Assembly (NCBI GenBank): GCA_019400425.1
Contig: JAFREE010000025.1
Span: 62,001-126,000 of the forward strand
DNA length: 64,000 nucleotides
Source of the DNA: Hymenochaete sp. R1
Lineage: Eukaryota > Basidiomycota > Agaricomycetes > Hymenochaetales > Hymenochaetaceae
Direction: 5' to 3'
Each line of letters starts with the position of its first letter. Position 1 is the first letter of the stretch. This document shows positions 15,712 through 61,800 of this stretch, piece after piece. Both the position numbers and the translations under genes were made by a program. The notes beneath the pieces were generated by a model. That model made no database searches. It was not told where the DNA came from and was given only the letters and a program-made list of their open reading frames with translations.

Positions 15712-16836
15712 ATGGGAGCACGACGTCGAAAGATTCCTGTAACCTCATCTGGAACACCAACCCATCATGCATCATCTTCATCGTCACCTTCAAGATGTCC
15801 TGGATCTAATCTGAAACATGGCACTTCAGCAAACCCTCACACATCTGCCCGTGTCATTCGGCGCTTTCATGTCCTCCTCAAGCGCAAGGCACAGCTCAAG
15901 AAACAACTCACGACCCTACCATTCTCAGACAGACGTGGACGTGGAATTAGAGATGATGAAATGATATATGAAGAACAATTGAGGAGAGTTGAGAGTGAGA
16001 TTGAGGAGATGGGTGGATTAGGGGCGTATCAACGAATGTCAACGATCGGACAGGGAAAGGATCGAGGTGGTGGGAGTGAAAGTGTCTTTATCACTTGGCT
16101 TGTTGAGTTGAGTGTCCGGGACGAATTTGAAAGCATTGGAAAAGGAAAGGGAAAGGCTACTAGTAGCAACAAGCTAAGGTAAGCTATTTCACTCGTTGTG
16201 TCCGCAATCGAGAGCTGACTGTTGTTAGCCTCCTCGAAGTCGGTGCTCTCAAACCTGATAATTACATATCATGCTCGAACTGGATGGAAGTCACTCCTAT
16301 TGACCTTCGCTCGAATCATTTCAACATTCTTGAGCAAGACTTTCTGCAGATGGACCTAGAAACAAACTCAAGGAAGTGGGATGCCATTAGCCTGAGCTTG
16401 GTTGTGAATTTTGTACCTGAGCCGAAGGATAGAGGTGTGTCATGTTCTTTATTAGAGGATCAGTTGGTGCTGAATTCAGTGTCGGTTTTGTAGGAAGGAT
16501 GCTGAGATATGCGTATACGATGCTGAAGACTGGCGGATGGCTATTCCTCACAGTAAGCTATTACTCCTCTCGCAATACAGTACCTTGAATCAAGCTAACG
16601 ATTGTAGCTTCCTCTTCCATGTGTTTCAAATTCACGATATCTCACTCAGGACCACCTGTATGAGCTCATGGAAGTAGTCGGGTTCAAGAAGATCCGGTCA
16701 CGCTGGAAAGTGGGAGGGAAGATGGCATACTGGTTGTTCAGGAAGCGTGAAGCATGTACTTCTTTGGACACGATACGATTTGGAAAGAAAACAGTATTGA
16801 GGGAAGGAAAAAGGAATAACTTCTGTATCTTATTGT
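15712..16836 (+). CDS. BMT2: 25S rRNA (adenine-N1)-methyltransferase Bmt2
   Basis: Bmt2 is a nucleolar SAM-dependent enzyme that makes an m1A in domain IV of the large-subunit rRNA (A2142 in yeast). The basic N terminus (MGARRRKIPVTSS) is followed by a helical region RVIRRFHVLLKRKAQLKKQL. Then come family blocks LLEVGALKPDNYISCSNW, TPIDLRSNHFNILEQDFL, DAISLSLVVNFVPEPKDRG, MLRYAYTMLKTGGWLFL and LPLPCVSNSRYLTQDHLYEL. These include the SAM-binding acidic and glycine positions. Three introns are removed by GT-AG sites that keep these blocks intact. An in-frame Met at 15700 adds four residues; the 15712 start is preferred because it opens the basic head. The stop falls at a possible splice donor (ttgtgagt), but using that donor would only create another immediate stop. 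Confidence 0.9.
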
Positions 16837-19809
16837 GAGTACCTTTCGGCATATACTTAGTTTCATGTATTCAATCAGTGTTTCATTCCAGGTAGTGGTC
16901 AGTCGTCATGCTGTGATTTTCTGTTTCTGGCTTCAATCGGTAAGTCAGCCTCCTCAATGCACAGGACCAGTCCCAATTTTCAAACACTCTGCGTCAGCCC
17001 TCGTCGCCTTGAGATGTCTCAGGCGGGCGTTTGGAACGAAAACCGATGTCAGCTGAAGCATACTCTGCGACATCCAGACTAAATTCGAATGTACACCCAT
17101 CCGAGTCGGGGCTAACGTGAAGCTATTCTATCTCGGATTCTGATCTGCGCTGAATGTCAGCCTGAGGATGACAATGGGTTGGCAACGAATCGCGACTGGG
17201 CTCAGGAGACCAGTCTGATTCGGGATATGCGGTGCAGTACGCAGATTCATGAGGGAGGCTGGGGAATGCGTCAGCCGCAACAGTCAGCTCGCGCTTCCTT
17301 CATGAAAGAGATTTAACGTTCCACTCCGATCGATGCTGGCAGTTAGCCGAAATATCGAATATATGGCACCTGGTCTGAACACGAATGCTGGTCTCACCAG
17401 CCTACAAGTGATTATGGTTTCAGCCTCATTCATTACGATGGTCTGGATTTGAATTTCAGTCTTCATCTAAGGACATCCCAAGGACGTGGCAGGCAGATGG
17501 CTGGTCTGGATTTGAACCAGGGTATATGCCAGCCTCAATTCATCTTACCACTACCCTACCAACGGTTGGATGCTCGAGCGACGATCTTAATCGTGACAGA
17601 TTACCGTCTCTATTTGAACGTGTGTCAGCCTCGCATGCATCAATGCGTGGATTTCAATATCACTACATTGAGGCTGGACGATAGCCTGGACTGAGAGCCA
17701 AGCTTGGATGCCGACCTCTCTAACCCAGCCTCGATCGCGCATGGTCCGAACCCAGACATCCAGCTTTGTGCATGCACCAGCCACCCAAGCAGTCCGTGCA
17801 CGTTGTTCAAATGTGGACCGCAAGTGCCGCAGTTGGTGACCAGCCGCTATAAATCCATTCGATTATAGCCCCCAGCCTCACATTTCAGGGCAGTCTGAAA
17901 GGTGTCAGCCCAAGAGTACTGAATGATTCAGTAGATTAATACTAGACTCCGACGTTCAAGTTTTATTCAAGGTCGATGGACGATCATTGCTCTCTTACGA
18001 CTCTCCAGTTCGTGAGACGGATTTGAAACCTCTCGATGTCTTCGTGACTTCCATCGTTTCCCGTGTCCATTCATCGCGATCGAGGCTGCTGAAAGTCAGC
18101 ACTTCCCGATTTCGTCTATCGGGTCAGATACGATCAACAACTCATGCCCGCCAAGCGCCGTCAGTGTCATTCAAGTTCGTGATATTGTTAAGAGCATCCT
18201 TCTTCGATCCAGACGCTAGCCCGTGGATGAGGCTGACAGTAGGGTACGGCGGTCTGTTTGCTCACTGTCTTAGTGATACCAGCCCTGGCTGTGATTTTGG
18301 CTTAGCTCTGACCGATCTCTCAATATGGGCTGACGGAGCTAAACGCAGATCTAGGGAATGTCTAGAATTCAGAGGAGAGAAAGAGACATGCCAGCCTCCA
18401 TTGGTCAGCCCCACGGATTCTGTACCTGCGGATGAGAAGGATATTAGATTCGTCCAAGTGCGCCTGTCCACATATTACACACTTTACTCTTTTGCAGATG
18501 CTAGCCTCAAGAGCAGTTGGGTTTCGTACGTAATCCGCCTTTCCAAGTTGTTTTGCGGCGGTTTCCAGTCCCGGTCAGAATCTCGTACCCCTGGATGGCT
18601 TTTCCCGCTGGTCTCCCCGGGCTGGTCTGAAATCGAACGCAGTCCATGTCAGCCCATCATCAGTACAAAATAGGGAACACGTTACCAGCCCCCCCCCCCC
18701 CTCTCTTCTCTTCTTCGTTACTTTCTCCTGCCACCTTGGTCTTCCCTCTGATCTGCTGTCCATCCCTTTGCTCTGAGTCTCTGGCTTTGGCCCTGGGGCT
18801 TGATGTTGGCTACTGCGCCGTGGACTATGAGGTAACACCCGGCGCAAGTATCGGAGCACCGCTGCAAGACCTTCTGTAATTTTGAAGCTTGACTTTGGTT
18901 TGGTAAGCGGGCGGCACGAGCAACCAAGTCCTCGACGGTCCGTCGTTCTTTTCTTGCGATATGGTAGCCTGAGATCACGACGAACTTGTGAGTTCTTATT
19001 GAAATCTTCGCTTTTTTTTCTTGATACTCGCTACCTCGTTGTTCTAGATCTCAAACATCAAACAGCATGTTCAATCTTGACCTTCCACTTAATGCCTTGG
19101 TGAGCTCTGATCCGGAGTAGGTCCATAGTCTTGTATTGCCGCGGCATATACTTCTGAAAACCAGGAACCCTTGTGTGGTGGCTCTTCTTGGGACTATTTA
19201 GACCAATCTCACTCTCCGCACCTCAGATTGATGCAACGTGCGTTTCTTCTGTGCTTGTTTCGCCTGGGGCATTGCCCTGGCTCACTGTCACTTCCCAGAA
19301 TCCGGATCTGAATCACCGACTTCATCTTGTGCAGTAGTCGACTGTGACTAGGAGGGCAGTGTAGGTTGCAACATCCGTATCCTATCCTATGCTGGCTGGG
19401 CAATAGTAGTAAACAGAGTCTTTTCATGCTAATTTTGCTAAGTCTGTGAACTAAGCGTAGTAGCTGTAACGCGGAGAACGGGTGCCGGATAATAGAGGAA
19501 CCCGGTAGAACAGTGAGGGGTTGGAACTTTTCAGTGTACTGGTAGTTAACTTTTGCAGTAATGAGAATATAATTATGAAAATGCTTTCTTCAAAATTCTT
19601 GTCTGGCAACTTCTTGAGGATGAATGGGGTCCGAAAAGACCGGAGGTGTACTGCTTTCACGGCGACTTTCGGAAAACACGTGCAATCACGGGCCGCCGCC
19701 GGACATTGACGGGCAATATTAACGGCGGCCAACTCAGCCAACTTGAACTGCATTACATTGAGTCTACCATATTGCACTCGCCTTCCTTCGTCTATGAGTC
19801 GGATGCATC
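16837..19809. repeat. CAGCC-rich repeat tract and dispersed repeat before DLD1
   Basis: About 3 kb with no convincing gene. From about 16.94 to 18.70 kb the plus strand is studded with TCAGCC, CCAGCC and GGTCTG words, for example at about 16944, 17157, 17420, 17529, 17624, 17724, 17871 and 18391. Phrases such as ggtctggatttgaa recur twice (about 17440 and 17504). Spacing is close to 100 bases in the middle, suggesting a badly decayed tandem array. A roughly 0.2 kb dispersed repeat closes the tract at 18629-18860. The frame at 17987-18673 is long (228 codons) but lies inside the repeat and has no recognisable domain. From 18.9 to 19.8 kb I see only the DLD1 upstream region. Confidence 0.5.
18629..18860 (+). 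repeat. Direct repeat copy B
   Basis: This is the partner of the copy at 13078-13300, in the same orientation and about 5.55 kb downstream. It contains an added run of thirteen C (18689-18701) followed by a CT-rich stretch. The pair encloses the zinc-finger gene and BMT2. Confidence 0.75.
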
Positions 19810-53739: not shown

Positions 53740-56320
53740 TCACGGCCATGTGTTCAGTGCCTTCTGCGCTGCTGTGGATAATACGAGTGAGTCAGGCGTG
53801 GCCTTCGTTTGGTCCAACATTGGTCGTAACTCGTTGATGAGGCGATTGGCCTTGTCCTTTCTTTCTCCCTCATTCGATATGCTTTGTCCGATATTGGTGA
53901 GCAACGTGCATAAATTCGCACGCAATTCCACGGGAAACTTTCCATCCTCGTTTTTCAATATTGTTACGAGCATATCCAATGCGGTCCGAGGCCCTTCCTG
54001 AACCTCGTTAGTCCCATTTGACGTAGCTACCTCTGCATCTAAGCTGTTTTGGCGAGAAGGCGGCGACACCTCTTTGGGGAGGTCGGCGAGGAGGGCGTCC
54101 AAAACGTACGACGCTAAACAAATTGATAAGAACCATGAAATTTGTTGTAAACCAATGATCTGCCGAACCTCCTTCCGGTTTCAAGGAAAGCAAACAAAGC
54201 GCAACAATCGATTCATTGAGAAGAATACCATGCTTCCTGCTCCTTCCTAGCAGCTGAGCAAGGATGACGGCGTTGTTTGCACTCGTGACCACTCCAATCG
54301 CTGATTGCCTTTCGGGATCTTGTATGTTTTCGGTGTTGGAGCATAACGACCTGACGACGTTAACCAAAACTCGTGCACCCTCGCTTTTGACATGCACCGA
54401 GTCGGAACGTCGAGAAAGAGCTAGAACTTGATTCAAACACGTCGATGTGACATCAGCGTCATCCTTGTCCATCGCGCAGTCGATAGAATTGCGAACTTCG
54501 AAATGTTAATCAGTAATGCTCACACGGACTCTCCGCGACACATTTCGACTTACCGTTGTAGGTACACATATGCTTTGTCAAGTTGATAGCAGACATTTGC
54601 ACTATGAGGGAGATGTCTGAAGTAGAAGAAAAGACTTGGGAGGAACGCAGAGCCTGCAAAACACGGGCCTCGCCTAAAACCGGACGTGTCGATGCGGTCT
54701 GGGAGATGTGTTTCAGCAGCCCAATGACACCATGCTTGAGTTTGAGGTCGCTTTTTGGAGTTAGATGCTTGACGAGGATAGGGGCAATCTCGACTGGGGG
54801 GCTTGTGAGGGCATGGGCCTGAGTTTCTAGAGGTCACCGTGAGGTAGATTCTCATCATTCACAACAAGAGCTCACCTCCGCGTACCAAATTCCCAAGGCA
54901 AAGACTTGCACAAATTATCAGATCATCGCGGACGTTGCTCTCGGAGATTCTGATCCATCCTAGTAATCGTTGCACGAAGGATCCTTCAGGTTTGTCGATA
55001 TCCCAGAGAATAGTCAAATTATCATCTTCTCCCGACAACTCCACGATCGCTCTGATAACGGCGGTCTTGCAGAGATCCACTGCTCGCTTACATTTCACAA
55101 CATCTTCGGTAACGGTAGCATCTTGCCATTCCGGCGGATATTCTGCCTTTTCAACAAAGTCAAGCATTGTTGAAAGACAGTGAGGGGTATCATTCGCGGC
55201 GAACCCACGGGCCAACATAATCCGGATGTCCTCGACGTCCATCGTCACCGATTCCAGCAGCTCACAGACCTCTTCCAGTACATCGATGTCAGTGCTTAGA
55301 AGAGCATCGCAGGTGTCAGCACCGAGTGCATCTATATTGCTCGCTTGTATGGGAGGAATCAACGACTTTAAGGGGTAAGTCATGAACGGTAGAGACTCAG
55401 GTCCAAATATGGGTTGTTTAGCCTCTTGACAAAAATTAACTAAGAATGTCATTGGGAGCATTTAAATTTACATACGATTGTCCTTGAAATTTGCGATGGC
55501 CCGTAATGACCAATCACTGGTAACTTTTCGTATCATCCACTCGTCTGCAGTGGATGCAGCAATGTCCATCTGACGCCAAGAGCCTGGGGGGTATAGGGAT
55601 ATTGATAGTCGAAGCAGCGTAGATGGAACTTCCAAGGACATTAATTCGGTCTGAATTGGCTCTGAAACGGTATGAATAACCCCATGCAATAAGAGACAGG
55701 AGAGTTACGCACCATAATCCGTTGTAAGATTCAAAATGGCCCCGAAAGCGGTTCTGATAATCTTTAGATGGATTCCTGTCAGGGGAAATGGAGTTGACGA
55801 TGGATACTCCGGCATTGTTTCAAGGTAGTTTTCCATAAGTTCAGCTATCTCTTGGGGCATCCCGGCGTCGAGGAGATAACCTCGGTTTTCGTCTGGATTC
55901 AAATGAGTTACATCTGAATGGGCAAGGGACAGAGTTTTCCCTTACTGTGGTCCATACAGAGATTTGCGCCAGCTCGGAGAAGCTCAAAAACAGGAGATGC
56001 TCTGGCTTCATCCGGTAGACTGGAGTCGTGAAGCGCTGCTTTCAAGAGAGACGTCAAAGTGTGAGGTAGTAGCGTTCTCCCTAACAATGTTCTATCGTCG
56101 ACTTATCGCGGGGGCGGAGAAGCGATGAGCATTAGTTCACAGTATCATCGGAGCGGACCGACACACCGTCACCAATCTGCATTCGTAGTTCATTAGCTAA
56201 GAATTGCGCAGTGACTTCGACAGTTGACCAATCCGGTTGGACCTCGATGCTTGCGAAGAGATCACCGAGCTTGCTCGCAGCCCTTTGAGCAGCAGTTACC
56301 ACAGCCTCAGAACTATCCAT
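53740..56320 (-). CDS. SmgGDS-like armadillo-repeat protein (RAP1GDS1 family)
   Basis: Animal SmgGDS binds small GTPases with C-terminal polybasic tails and helps their prenylation and nucleotide exchange. This protein is all-helical with armadillo-like repeats over its length. The start MDSSEAVVTAAQRAASKL is followed by FGAILNLTTDYGA. PEGSFVQRLLGWIRISESN then leads into DDLIICASLCLGNLVRGG, which parallels the family's FxQRxLxWIP and NLAR-type repeats. LKHGVIGLLKHISQTA, EGARVLVNVVRSLC and ESIVALCLLSLKPEGG are further repeats. It ends QKALNTWP. Six to eight introns were inferred. Family assignment rests on repeat pattern and recognisable blocks, not on a catalytic site. A more general armadillo annotation is possible. 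Confidence 0.75.
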
Positions 56321-57442
56321 CGATCTTAATGGCGCGCTTAATCCGGGAGGCGGATGGTGGAGAGAACGCAAGTGCAATTCCGAGTTTGCATGGTGTTCGA
56401 AAGGGGAGCGTTGATGGTGATGAAAGGTTCGTAAATGCACACGTGATAATACGAGGTTAGAAAAAGTGGGATTCCTCAGATTCCTCTTCCTTAAGCTTCC
56501 AGCCCTTCCAGCAAGCTCAGCTCTACCATCTCATGATTAAATTTCCTGATGTATTCTTGCATGCCGCAAGTAATAGACTGGCATTCTGGAGTCGCTGAAA
56601 ACCGACACAGTATAGCTAAATTGAAAGTCGATGCTATAGCGTATCCCGCGACTCGGTCAGTCCTTCTATCCGGCCGTACCAATCGTCGTTTTACATACTA
56701 ACCAACACACACAGCAACAGTGATAAGAGCGACCTGTTGCAACTACTCAGCTTCTCTTCGTTTCTTCTCGTGGCTGGCCTCCATTAGTGTTGGACAAAGA
56801 GATGCAGATATTGCTTGAAGTGCCTATGGAGAGATATGGATGTGAATGCTACGGGCTTTGTCTGCCTCTCTTGGTTATTAGCGCGACTTCCAGCACCGGA
56901 GCTTACTATGAGCCGGAATGATAACCTCTATTCTCAGACGAGGCTGTGTAAATGCAAAGTTTCGTTCGGGTTCATTGCAGATTTGCAAGGTTTTTTTGCG
57001 CAAGTATCTCGCGTCCCGTCTCGCAATGAAGGTGAAGGCCATATACCGTGCACGCTCGGATTAACTTCTACTTCAAGCCAACGTCCTGTCACTTACATTT
57101 CAATTGAATGCCTATGCAGCTCAGCTGCTTCCCGTGGATGATAGGCTTTGTCCTGCATGTCTTCTCCGCGCGTGGCAGAGAATGAGTGGTTGCCTGCCGA
57201 TGAGCAAATGTCCATTTTAGGACATCATAATTGGTTGACTCAACGCACACAATGCACGTACGTACATTCCGTTTTTTTTGAAGACATTAGCTCTCCTATT
57301 GTTCGTTCTTCCGAATCCGCGGTCTCTGTTGCGACAAAATCAGTATTTAAGTGGCAATTGAATTTTTTTGCTTCCCCTCAGAAACGACCCCCTTACGTTC
57401 ACGACTGTTTCAGCAGGGACTTGAAGCTTTCAGCCCTTACCC
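56321..57442. other. Intergenic upstream of the pheromone-precursor gene
   Basis: About 1.1 kb. A minus-strand frame at 56491-56682 ends in CRFSATPECQSITCGM and ELSLLEGLEA and could be the last exon of a small protein. A nearby minus-strand ATG (encoding MEASHEKKRREAE) cannot be spliced to it in frame, so I do not call a gene. Three ACAAAG words, the core bound by HMG-box mating regulators, lie at 56794-56799 (plus) and at 56856-56861 and 57146-57151 (minus). The last 100 bases hold the pheromone gene's TATA-like box. Confidence 0.4.
57344..57350 (+). promoter_or_regulatory. TATA-like box of the pheromone-precursor gene
   Basis: The heptamer tatttaa lies 99 bases before the ATG at 57443, a typical fungal TATA distance. 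It is a sequence match only. Confidence 0.4.
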
Positions 57443-57586
57443 ATGGACACCTTCGCTTTATTCAATAACCTCTTTTCGTCACTCTCGCCAAGCGCGCAGG
57501 ATCGCGATGCCGAGTCATCCATACCCACAAATGCAGAAGTTCAAGGGAGCGGTAATGCCTGTGCAGCGTACTGTGTAATCGCGTAG
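57443..57586 (+). CDS. Mating-type pheromone precursor (CaaX, farnesylated lipopeptide)
   Basis: This is a single 47-codon exon that I read from the raw sequence. Its plan matches basidiomycete a-factor-like pheromone precursors, which activate STE3-type receptors. It begins MDTFALFNNLFSSLSP, the Met-Asp-(Ser/Thr)-Phe start usual for these precursors. A short polar spacer with charged pairs (QDRDAE) follows, then PTNAEVQGSGN. It closes with AAYCVIA directly before TAG. The last four residues Cys-Val-Ile-Ala form a CaaX box, so Cys44 should be farnesylated, the VIA removed and the end carboxymethylated. An aromatic residue just before the Cys is also common in mature pheromones. The N-terminal cut probably lies near the Asn-Ala-Glu (residues 30-32), giving a mature peptide of about 12-14 residues; this is inference. 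No STE3-like receptor or second precursor is visible nearby. Confidence 0.85.
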   Translation: MDTFALFNNLFSSLSPSAQDRDAESSIPTNAEVQGSGNACAAYCVIA

Positions 57587-58804: not shown

Positions 58805-61800
58805 ATGGAGGTTTGTTTCCTTCTCTTCAACGGAATTGGATGAATGCGCGCCCTCGCGGATGACGGATGTCATTGTTGCTCATGCACTCCTCAATCTCTG
58901 TAGGCTCTTTTGGATTTTTCGCAGGAAAGTTTTGATGTCTCGCTCCTGGATCGCGTCGTGATGTCTTTCTATTCCGGTGCGGGCTCGGAGGTCCGTATAC
59001 ATCGTTGCGTTTCGAAGTCGTTGATTAATGTTGATGCCGTTGTCCATGTATTACAGCAACAAATGGCGCAACAGGTCCTTACGCAGTTTGAAGAACATTC
59101 CGACTCGTGGTCTCGTGTGCCAGATATTTTGGAAAAGTCGTCGTTTCCGCAATCCAAGGCGAGCCAATCAGTTACTAAGGAGCCAAATCGAAAGTATTGA
59201 CGCGCCTCTTAGTACATCGGGTTGCAAATCCTGGAGAAACTAGTTCAGACACGATGGAAGATGCTACCCGAAGGTCAACGGCAGGGTAAGCCTCTGACAT
59301 CTGAAACTTGGATCCTGGCTGACCGTAGGTTTTAGGTATACGTAACTTTATCGTTGGCGTTGTGGTGAAGGTCTCTTCGGACGAAACGACAATGCGACGC
59401 GAGAAGTCGTACGTGAATAAGCTTAATCTTGCATTAGTTCAAGTATGCCTTCACAATTCAATTATCCGAGTGTACGGATTCTCACTGCTCCCAGATCCTA
59501 AAGCAAGAATGGCCACACAATTGGCCAACATTCATTCCGGAACTCGTCGAATCTTCCAAGACTAACCTCTCCCTATGCGAAAACAATATGGTCATTTTGA
59601 AGCTCTTATCCGAGGAAATTTTCGATTTCTCTGCCGAGCAAATGACACAAGCGAAAACAAAGCATCTGAAAAATCAAATGTGCGGGGAGTTCTCCGAAAT
59701 CTTCAAACTCTGCTCAGAGATTTTGGAGGAAGCGCAGAAGACGTCTCTCATAAAGGCAACACTGGAGACGTTATTGCGTTTCCTTAATTGGATCCCGTTA
59801 GGATATATCTTTGAGACGACAATCATTGACCTATTGATGACTCGGGTGAGTTTACTTGAAATGATCCGCTGACCTCATCTAACTCTTCACCCAGTTTCTC
59901 GAAGTTGCCGAGTTCCGAAATGTCACGTTGAAGTGTCTAGCGGAAATTGCAGCTCTGAACGTTGGTCCGGAATATGACCCGAAGTTTGTTATTTTATTCG
60001 CAATGGTCATGACGTCGGTCAACCGCATGATTCCTCCAAACACGAATATTGCGGAAGCATATGCGAATGCGAATGACTCGGGACAGGAGCTTGTTCTTAA
60101 CCTCGCCTTATTCCTCACGAACTTCCTGTCAAATCATCTGCGTGCCGTCGAGACGGAGCAAAATCGTGATGTCCTTTTGAACGCACATTTATACATGGTG
60201 AAGGTGTCGCAAGTAGATGAACGGGAGATATTCAAAATCTGCTTGGAGTATTGGCTTAAGCTTGTTGCTGAGCTCTACGAAGAAATTCAGAGTTTACCCA
60301 TCGGCGAGTCCGGGCTGCTCATGGGGCTTAATCTTGGTGGCGCTTCAACCATGCTATCAGGTGTATCCTTGAGAAAGAATATCTACGGCGATGTGCTTTC
60401 AAATCTCAGATTAGTCGTCATTGAAAAGATGGTAAAACCCGAGGAGGTAAGTATATAATTACTTTCCCCCTTCATTTATAGGCTTCACGAGCTTTTCATC
60501 AGGTGTTGGTTGTGGAAAATGACGAAGGCGAAGTCGTCCGAGAGTTCATGAAAGAAAGCGATACCATCGTTTTATACAAGTCAATGCGTGAACTGCTTGT
60601 TTACTTGACACATTTGGACGTCCTCGATACCGAAACAATTCTTACGGAGAAACTCAGCAAGCAAGTGGATGGTAGCGAATGGTCTTGGAACAACTTGAAC
60701 ACGCTTTGTTGGGCGATCGGCTCCATATCAGGAGCTATGAGTAAGTCTTCGTGGGATGTCCTTGGTACTAGTGATTCACCATATCTTAGATGAGGAGACT
60801 GAAAAGCGGTTCCTTGTTACCGTCATCAAGGAGTTACTGGGACTCGTCGAGATGAAACGTGGGAAGGACAACAAAGCCATCGTCGCATCAAATATAATGT
60901 ATATCGTTGGCCAATACCCCCGTTTTCTGAAAGCACATTGGAAGTTCCTAAAAACGGTAGTGAACAAACTCTTCGAATTCATGCACGAAACGCATGAGGG
61001 AGTGCAAGATATGGCCTGCGACACCTTCATCAAAATTGCACAGAAATGTAGACGTCATTTCGTCATGCAACAGTCGGGTGAAACTGAGCCATTCGTCGAC
61101 GAGATTCTGCGTTTGCTGCACCGTATCACTGTTGACCTTTCACCTCAGCAAGTCCATACATTCTATGAGGCGGTTGGCTATATGATTTCAGCTCAACCCA
61201 ACAAACCGCAACAGGAAAAATTGATCTCTAGGCTCATGGAGATACCAAATAATGCCGTACGTCGTTGTACCTAAATCGGCTTCCCACAGACATCTCTAAT
61301 GCACTGTAAATTGGCTTTGTAGTGGGATTCGCTCATGTCGCAAGCTGCACAAAACATGGACGTGCTTAGCAGTGTCGACAACATCAAAGTGCTAGCAAAC
61401 GTACTAAAGACAAACGTTGCTGCCTGTACTTCGATAGGGAGCTTCTTCTTACCTCAGTTGGGACGGGTTTTTATGGACATGCTGGGCCTTTACAAGGCTG
61501 TAAGCGGAATCATCAGCGCATCAGTAGCCAGGGAAGGTGAGTTAATTCTAGCTGAATTCGTGTTTCCTCATTTGAACAATACTGTCCTTTCCTTAGGTAC
61601 AATTGCTACGAAGACTCCAAAAGTGCGACAGTTACGGACGGTCAAGAAGGAAATATTACGGTTAATGGAAACGTACATCAAGAAAGCAGAGGATTTAGAT
61701 GCTGTCTACAACAATTTCATTCCCCCGCTACTTGATGCTATACTTGGCGACTACCAAACAAACGTTCCAGCTGCCCGCGACGCAGAAGTCCTCAATGTAA

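Follow-up and report, generated by a model that had tools for sequence, protein, structure and literature searches.

Background

Published accounts of pheromone processing (PMC8305134, PMC5100862) describe farnesylation of the CaaX cysteine, removal of the aaX residues and carboxymethylation, together with N-terminal trimming at a charged dipeptide that lies 10-15 residues from the end. For non-mating-type peptides the consensus GGGSGNGAYC / GGGSGNNAYC, drawn from C. cinerea and L. bicolor, has been given (PMC8305134), and four of the seven precursors of Pycnoporus cinnabarinus are said to resemble presumed non-mating-type peptides (PMC4101180). The gene for a PAK kinase flanks MATB in Trichaptum, a genus of the Hymenochaetales (PMC8970355), and linkage of CLA4 to the B locus was reported for other mushrooms (PMC3140503). 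Gene predictors often overlook pheromone genes (PMC5473757), and a large study discarded, as false positives, pheromone hits distant from STE3 genes (PMC8970355).

Here we describe a pheromone-precursor gene of Hymenochaete sp. R1, located in a 64-kb stretch of DNA (the window, C168:62001-126000) and compared with the whole genome assembly (27.8 Mb, 336 contigs). We estimate at about 75% the probability that this is a functional single-unit gene for a farnesylated pheromone, whose product most likely serves as a general pheromone-like signal and does not determine mating type.

The precursor gene and its surroundings

The genes on either side of the precursor interval are divergent, each with its 5' end towards it. 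The relevant features (window positions) are:

53740-56320, - strand: SmgGDS-like ARM-repeat gene (704 aa in our own splice model, with uncertainty at some junctions)
57344-57350, + strand: TATTTAA, probable TATA box, 99 bases before the ATG
57443-57586, + strand: pheromone-precursor ORF MDTFALFNNLFSSLSPSAQDRDAESSIPTNAEVQGSGNACAAYCVIA, 47 aa plus TAG stop, supported by PF08015 and profile scores
57443-57454, + strand: Met-Asp-Thr-Phe start motif (MDxF is common to all seven genes described below)
57539-57574, + strand: predicted mature peptide VQGSGNACAAYC, after Glu32 (putative cleavage site)
57572-57583, + strand: CaaX box Cys-Val-Ile-Ala, directly before the stop
59588-60455, + strand: CRM1/exportin-1, two exon stretches (59588-59869, Xpo1; 60003-60455, CRM1 repeats)

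The first-pass annotation had reported a frame of 47 codons, beginning with Met-Asp-Thr-Phe and stopping directly after Tyr-Cys-Val-Ile-Ala, and on re-reading all of this proved exact. In its size and start (47 aa, MDTF) the precursor falls within the range of the family (about 40-100 aa, MDxF), and it ends, as expected of the family, with a C-terminal CaaX box (CVIA-stop). The position of the charged dipeptide reads N-A-E-V, i.e. it retains the invariant Glu, 15 residues from the end, and contains no ER, EH or EE.

The TATTTAA box claimed 99 bases upstream is indeed present. A TATAWA motif lies 98-210 bases before the ATG in all six paralogues (searched within 260 bases), compared with 5.5% of random 170-base segments (5.8% if either TATAWA or TATTTAA is accepted). 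An in-frame stop is found six codons upstream of the precursor start. The leader, counted from TATA+30 to the start codon, is ATG-free, which is weak evidence because the same is true of 31% of random 69-base segments; leaders defined in this way are ATG-free in six of the seven pheromone genes, and the seventh has one ATG exactly at TATA+30. On the 3' side, a strict criterion predicted a canonical 3'-UTR intron in three of the seven genes (4.9% of random segments), and by the same criterion none was found for the precursor at 57443-57586.

The absence of a charged dipeptide, the extra Cys40 and a third-position GC content of 0.53, which is lower than in five of the six paralogues (0.59-0.73; the sixth, 0.44) though like that of the CRM1 exon (0.55), could be taken as signs of a decaying relic, i.e. 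an intact-looking frame whose expression or processing has been lost. We consider such decay very unlikely, as the precursor keeps an intact start motif, CaaX box and set of invariant core residues, and the TATA-like box is in place.

Concerning the neighbouring genes, the CRM1/exportin-1 assignment of the first-pass annotation was confirmed, and its SmgGDS-like label for the left neighbour is plausible, with no support from Pfam (three ORF pieces) or PDB (one piece). Of 7991 candidates scored with the spliced ARM-repeat model, 63 proteins matched. Those with names come exclusively from fungi, and they include several “ARM-repeat” proteins, one “putative small GTPase mediated signal transduction” protein and one “GTP binding protein”. 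Identity reaches 53% with the proteins of Fomitiporia mediterranea and Coniferiporia weirii, 51-52% with Sanghuangporus and 44% with Rickenella, compared with about 36-42% for Polyporales and others, an order of similarity that points to an Agaricomycete, probably a member of the Hymenochaetales. A Fomitiporia pheromone-like peptide was considered as a positional counterpart of the precursor and rejected, the peptide and the Fomitiporia SmgGDS-like protein being on different contigs.

Membership of the pheromone family

With the Pfam model PF08015 (fungal mating-type pheromone) the precursor scores 23.8 bits, the gathering cut-off being 22. A second profile was built from the first units of 19 of 20 database homologues (P0008 was outside the length limit), with the precursor and its paralogues excluded. 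This profile placed the precursor first among 1678 window ORFs (29.5 bits, E 8.3e-8; runner-up, E 2.2), a result to be read with the caveat that the homologues had originally been retrieved using an alignment that included the precursor. The ORFs were taken from stop to stop (25 aa or more), and in the control, which consisted of 40 first-order Markov resamplings of the 64-kb window, the best of 72662 ORFs obtained 10.0 bits. A single instance of the motif M[DE]xF...CaaX is present in the window, and the 40 randomised 64-kb sequences have none.

A homologue search with the precursor sequence alone gave no match; a profile of the seven sequences retrieved 20 homologues with E values no higher than 1, 11 of them no higher than 1e-3. 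The genome search with PF08015, in which scoring is restricted to candidates from its own first look, reported five genes, among them neither the precursor nor the C68 gene, and the pairwise searches among pheromone regions returned no entry for the precursor. It is therefore through profiles alone that the precursor is linked to the family, since single-sequence and pairwise searches gave nothing. The shortness of the frame and the lack of a homologue in the single-sequence search are what might be expected of a chance ORF; we regard such an origin as scarcely credible in the face of the profile E value, the absence of the motif from all the randomised windows and a score above the Pfam cut-off.

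The proposal of a small CaaX pheromone-precursor gene is thus upheld by the PF08015 score, the profile test, the paralogues and the database homologues. As for the orthologues with conserved CaaX and MD(S/T)F ends whose search had been recommended, such conservation was found at the level of the family.

Paralogues across the genome

Searching the genome for the pattern YCV[IMV][AST]-stop gave eight matches, against two for the reversed control. An in-frame MDxF start is present in seven of the eight, with frames of 40-73 aa. These are seven pheromone-precursor genes distributed over six contigs: C168 (the gene at 57443-57586), C68, C325, C52, C295 and C293 (two genes). All except the C68 gene (18.1 bits) pass the PF08015 cut-off, i.e. 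six of the seven, and nine positions are invariant in the seven-sequence alignment: M1, D2, F4, P28, E32, G37, Y43, C44 and V45. The eighth match, YCVVT-stop on C328, belongs to a long frame which, judged by eye, has no pheromone features, and it was rejected. A looser pattern, without Tyr, gave 119 matches against 120 in the control, i.e. no signal. Seven genes is therefore a minimum, because looser patterns are uninformative and pheromones not ending in YCV are uncountable by pattern.

An origin of the pheromone genes by segmental or transposon-borne duplication was also considered and rejected, as blastn found no similarity between the regions, each 3 to 40 kb long. Translated matches between the regions fell on the pheromone frames or, once, on the opposite strand of one of them; outside these frames the regions showed no similarity, and the C168 precursor region matched no other in pairwise comparison.

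Two further observations were made. The extra cysteine of the precursor lies four residues before the CaaX cysteine, in an Ala-Cys-x-x-Tyr-Cys arrangement (window 57557-57574) which is also present in the first unit of the C295 gene. Moreover, contig C168 carries two near-identical 56-aa frames ending in NNFCILL, in opposite orientation (window 16668-16838, + strand; L022:6758-6928, - strand), which form an apparent inverted duplication.

Position relative to the mating-type loci

In a genome search whose counts are lower bounds, matches to STE3 receptors were found on C293 only, as five exon matches which we read as two genes (208.9-209.9 and 211.6-212.3 kb). A PBD-plus-kinase gene (PAK/CLA4-like) lies on the same contig at 227-229 kb, about 15 kb from the STE3 matches. 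Among the published Trichaptum MATB flanking genes, the PAK kinase alone was recognised on C293 (nine ORFs scanned with Pfam). The two-unit gene C293:192827-193042 is 16 kb from the STE3 matches and the other pheromone gene of this contig 69 kb; just one of the six paralogues is thus within 16 kb of them. A homeodomain pair and MIP occur together on C201, the arrangement expected of an A locus, and C68 has a further homeobox gene, at a distance of 134 kb from its pheromone gene. No STE3, homeodomain or MIP match was found on the 210-kb contig C168, on which the precursor is flanked by 119 kb and 90 kb of sequence.

The first-pass annotation had left two options for the gene, a B mating-type element or a dispersed pheromone-like gene. 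By linkage within contigs it is not a B-locus gene, because the STE3 matches are confined to C293 and none was found on C168. The second option is supported, with at least seven genes on six contigs and the precursor unlinked to the receptors found. A true B mating-type pheromone, belonging to a rearranged or distant PR sublocus and helping to decide mating compatibility, would nevertheless have the same precursor architecture, and the core of the peptide is not strongly Gly-rich. In addition, the contigs are fragments (C168 and C293 could belong to the same chromosome), and a distance as large as 177 kb between PR subloci has been reported in F. velutipes (PMC3140503). We judge this explanation unlikely, considering the lack of any STE3 match over the whole of C168, on both sides of the gene, and the presence in the core of GSGN and AYC, in common with non-mating-type peptides. 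A general pheromone-like role is the most likely, because neither the receptors found nor the homeodomain/MIP locus shows linkage to the gene on the assembly.

The presence of a clear family member away from the receptors suggests that distant matches of the kind discarded in the large study mentioned above can be genuine, and that pheromones are undercounted in genomes.

Two-unit precursors

A less expected side observation concerns two paralogues of the precursor gene, which encode two-unit precursors, in each case with both units in one frame:

L018:2827-3042 (G000:C293:192827-193042), - strand: two-unit precursor, 16 kb from the STE3 matches
L026:5425-5646 (G000:C295:103425-103646), + strand: two-unit precursor

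In this layout, an internal YCVVA or YCVVS unit is followed by a short spacer and by a second unit with the terminal CaaX box. Two of the seven precursors of the genome have two units; the one at 57443-57586 has a single unit. Among the database homologues the same layout was found in 15 of 20 (E no higher than 1) and in 9 of the 11 at E up to 1e-3, the named ones being from Phellopilus, Hypholoma and Tricholomella. Phellopilus belongs to the Hymenochaetales, and Hypholoma and Tricholomella to the Agaricales.

Over the nine residues that lead up to and include the Cys, the internal and the terminal unit agree completely in 10 of 17 two-unit precursors (15 from the database and two from this genome), compared with 4.4% of comparisons between different precursors. 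Mean core identity is 0.86 within a precursor and 0.55 between precursors (none of 10000 permutations reached the within value), these statistics being biased by sequence relatedness, by gene predictors favouring longer frames and by the two two-unit members in the query profile. Of the two genes described here, the exception is that on C295 (core identity 0.33). One two-unit homologue, P0011, ends with CVVAW, where a Trp follows the CaaX box as it does in the published FvPP1 of F. velutipes.

It is possible, and we propose it tentatively, that the pheromones of this fungus are largely uncoupled from the B locus (at least seven genes on six contigs) and that part of them belong to a widespread Agaricomycete class of two-unit precursors whose internal YCV(V/I)x unit often (10 of 17) has the same core as the terminal unit. 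If this were true, the internal copy would also be released and prenylated, by means of an endoproteolytic step, and each precursor would yield two lipopeptides, while the precursor at 57443-57586 would be a single-unit member of the dispersed set. We know of no mushroom in which an endoproteolytic step releasing such an internal unit has been described. The two-unit precursors therefore pose a concrete question, namely how the internal CaaX-like unit is processed. Two lipopeptides per precursor would match what has been proposed for rhodotorucine A, and a similar architecture has been published for rhodotorucine A and for the h-type precursors of Trichoderma. For mushrooms, no two-unit precursor was mentioned among the literature matches listed, in a search which left subscription journals mostly outside.

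Proposed maturation and role

We infer expression of the precursor, as well as its processing, receptor and role, along the following lines. The 47-aa precursor would be farnesylated at Cys44, VIA would then be removed and the cysteine methylated; the genome has genes matching the ICMT and prenyltransferase families. N-terminal cleavage near Glu32 would give approximately VQGSGNACAAYC-farnesyl methyl ester (or a product one residue shorter), the cleavage point being uncertain because there is no charged dipeptide, despite an invariant Glu32 at the right distance. The lipopeptide would be exported and read by a STE3-type receptor. As a general signal, it might act in nuclear migration, clamp fusion or hyphal communication.

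Comparison with known systems

Comparison of the predicted core with the non-mating-type consensus revealed GSGN and AYC in common. The sequence link to this class is weak, because the core has just two Gly among its 12 residues and aligns with the consensus only if an insertion of two residues is allowed. The precursor most likely belongs to the known dispersed pheromone-like class, mainly by its place; its sequence fits in part.

The genes described for A. bisporus (PMC8305134) are alike in encoding precursors of 44-54 aa with an MD(S/A)F start, a CaaX end and a core ending in AYC, and in their position, with only loose linkage to the mating-type locus or, for one of the four, a location on another chromosome. 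The precursor of Hymenochaete differs from them in having a less Gly-rich core, the two-residue insertion, a second Cys and no charged dipeptide. According to the same source, at least three of the four A. bisporus genes are expressed. The 3'-UTR intron reported for the A. bisporus genes is not evident in the Hymenochaete gene by the criterion used.

The B-locus precursors of Rhizopogon (PMC5473757) and Trichaptum (PMC8970355) resemble the gene at 57443-57586 in size, MD start, CaaX box and acidic residue at the maturation site. They are placed, however, beside or between STE3 genes, unlike this one.

Two other fungi can be likened to the present case by description: (i) Pycnoporus cinnabarinus (PMC4101180), with seven potential precursors of 39-65 aa, an MDA/DF start and a CaaX end, and (ii) Pleurotus tuoliensis (PMC5755439), for which two pheromone-like peptides were reported on scaffolds other than the two of matB. 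The gene is more likely to be a further example of the already known dispersed pheromone-like signals than a gene setting mating type.
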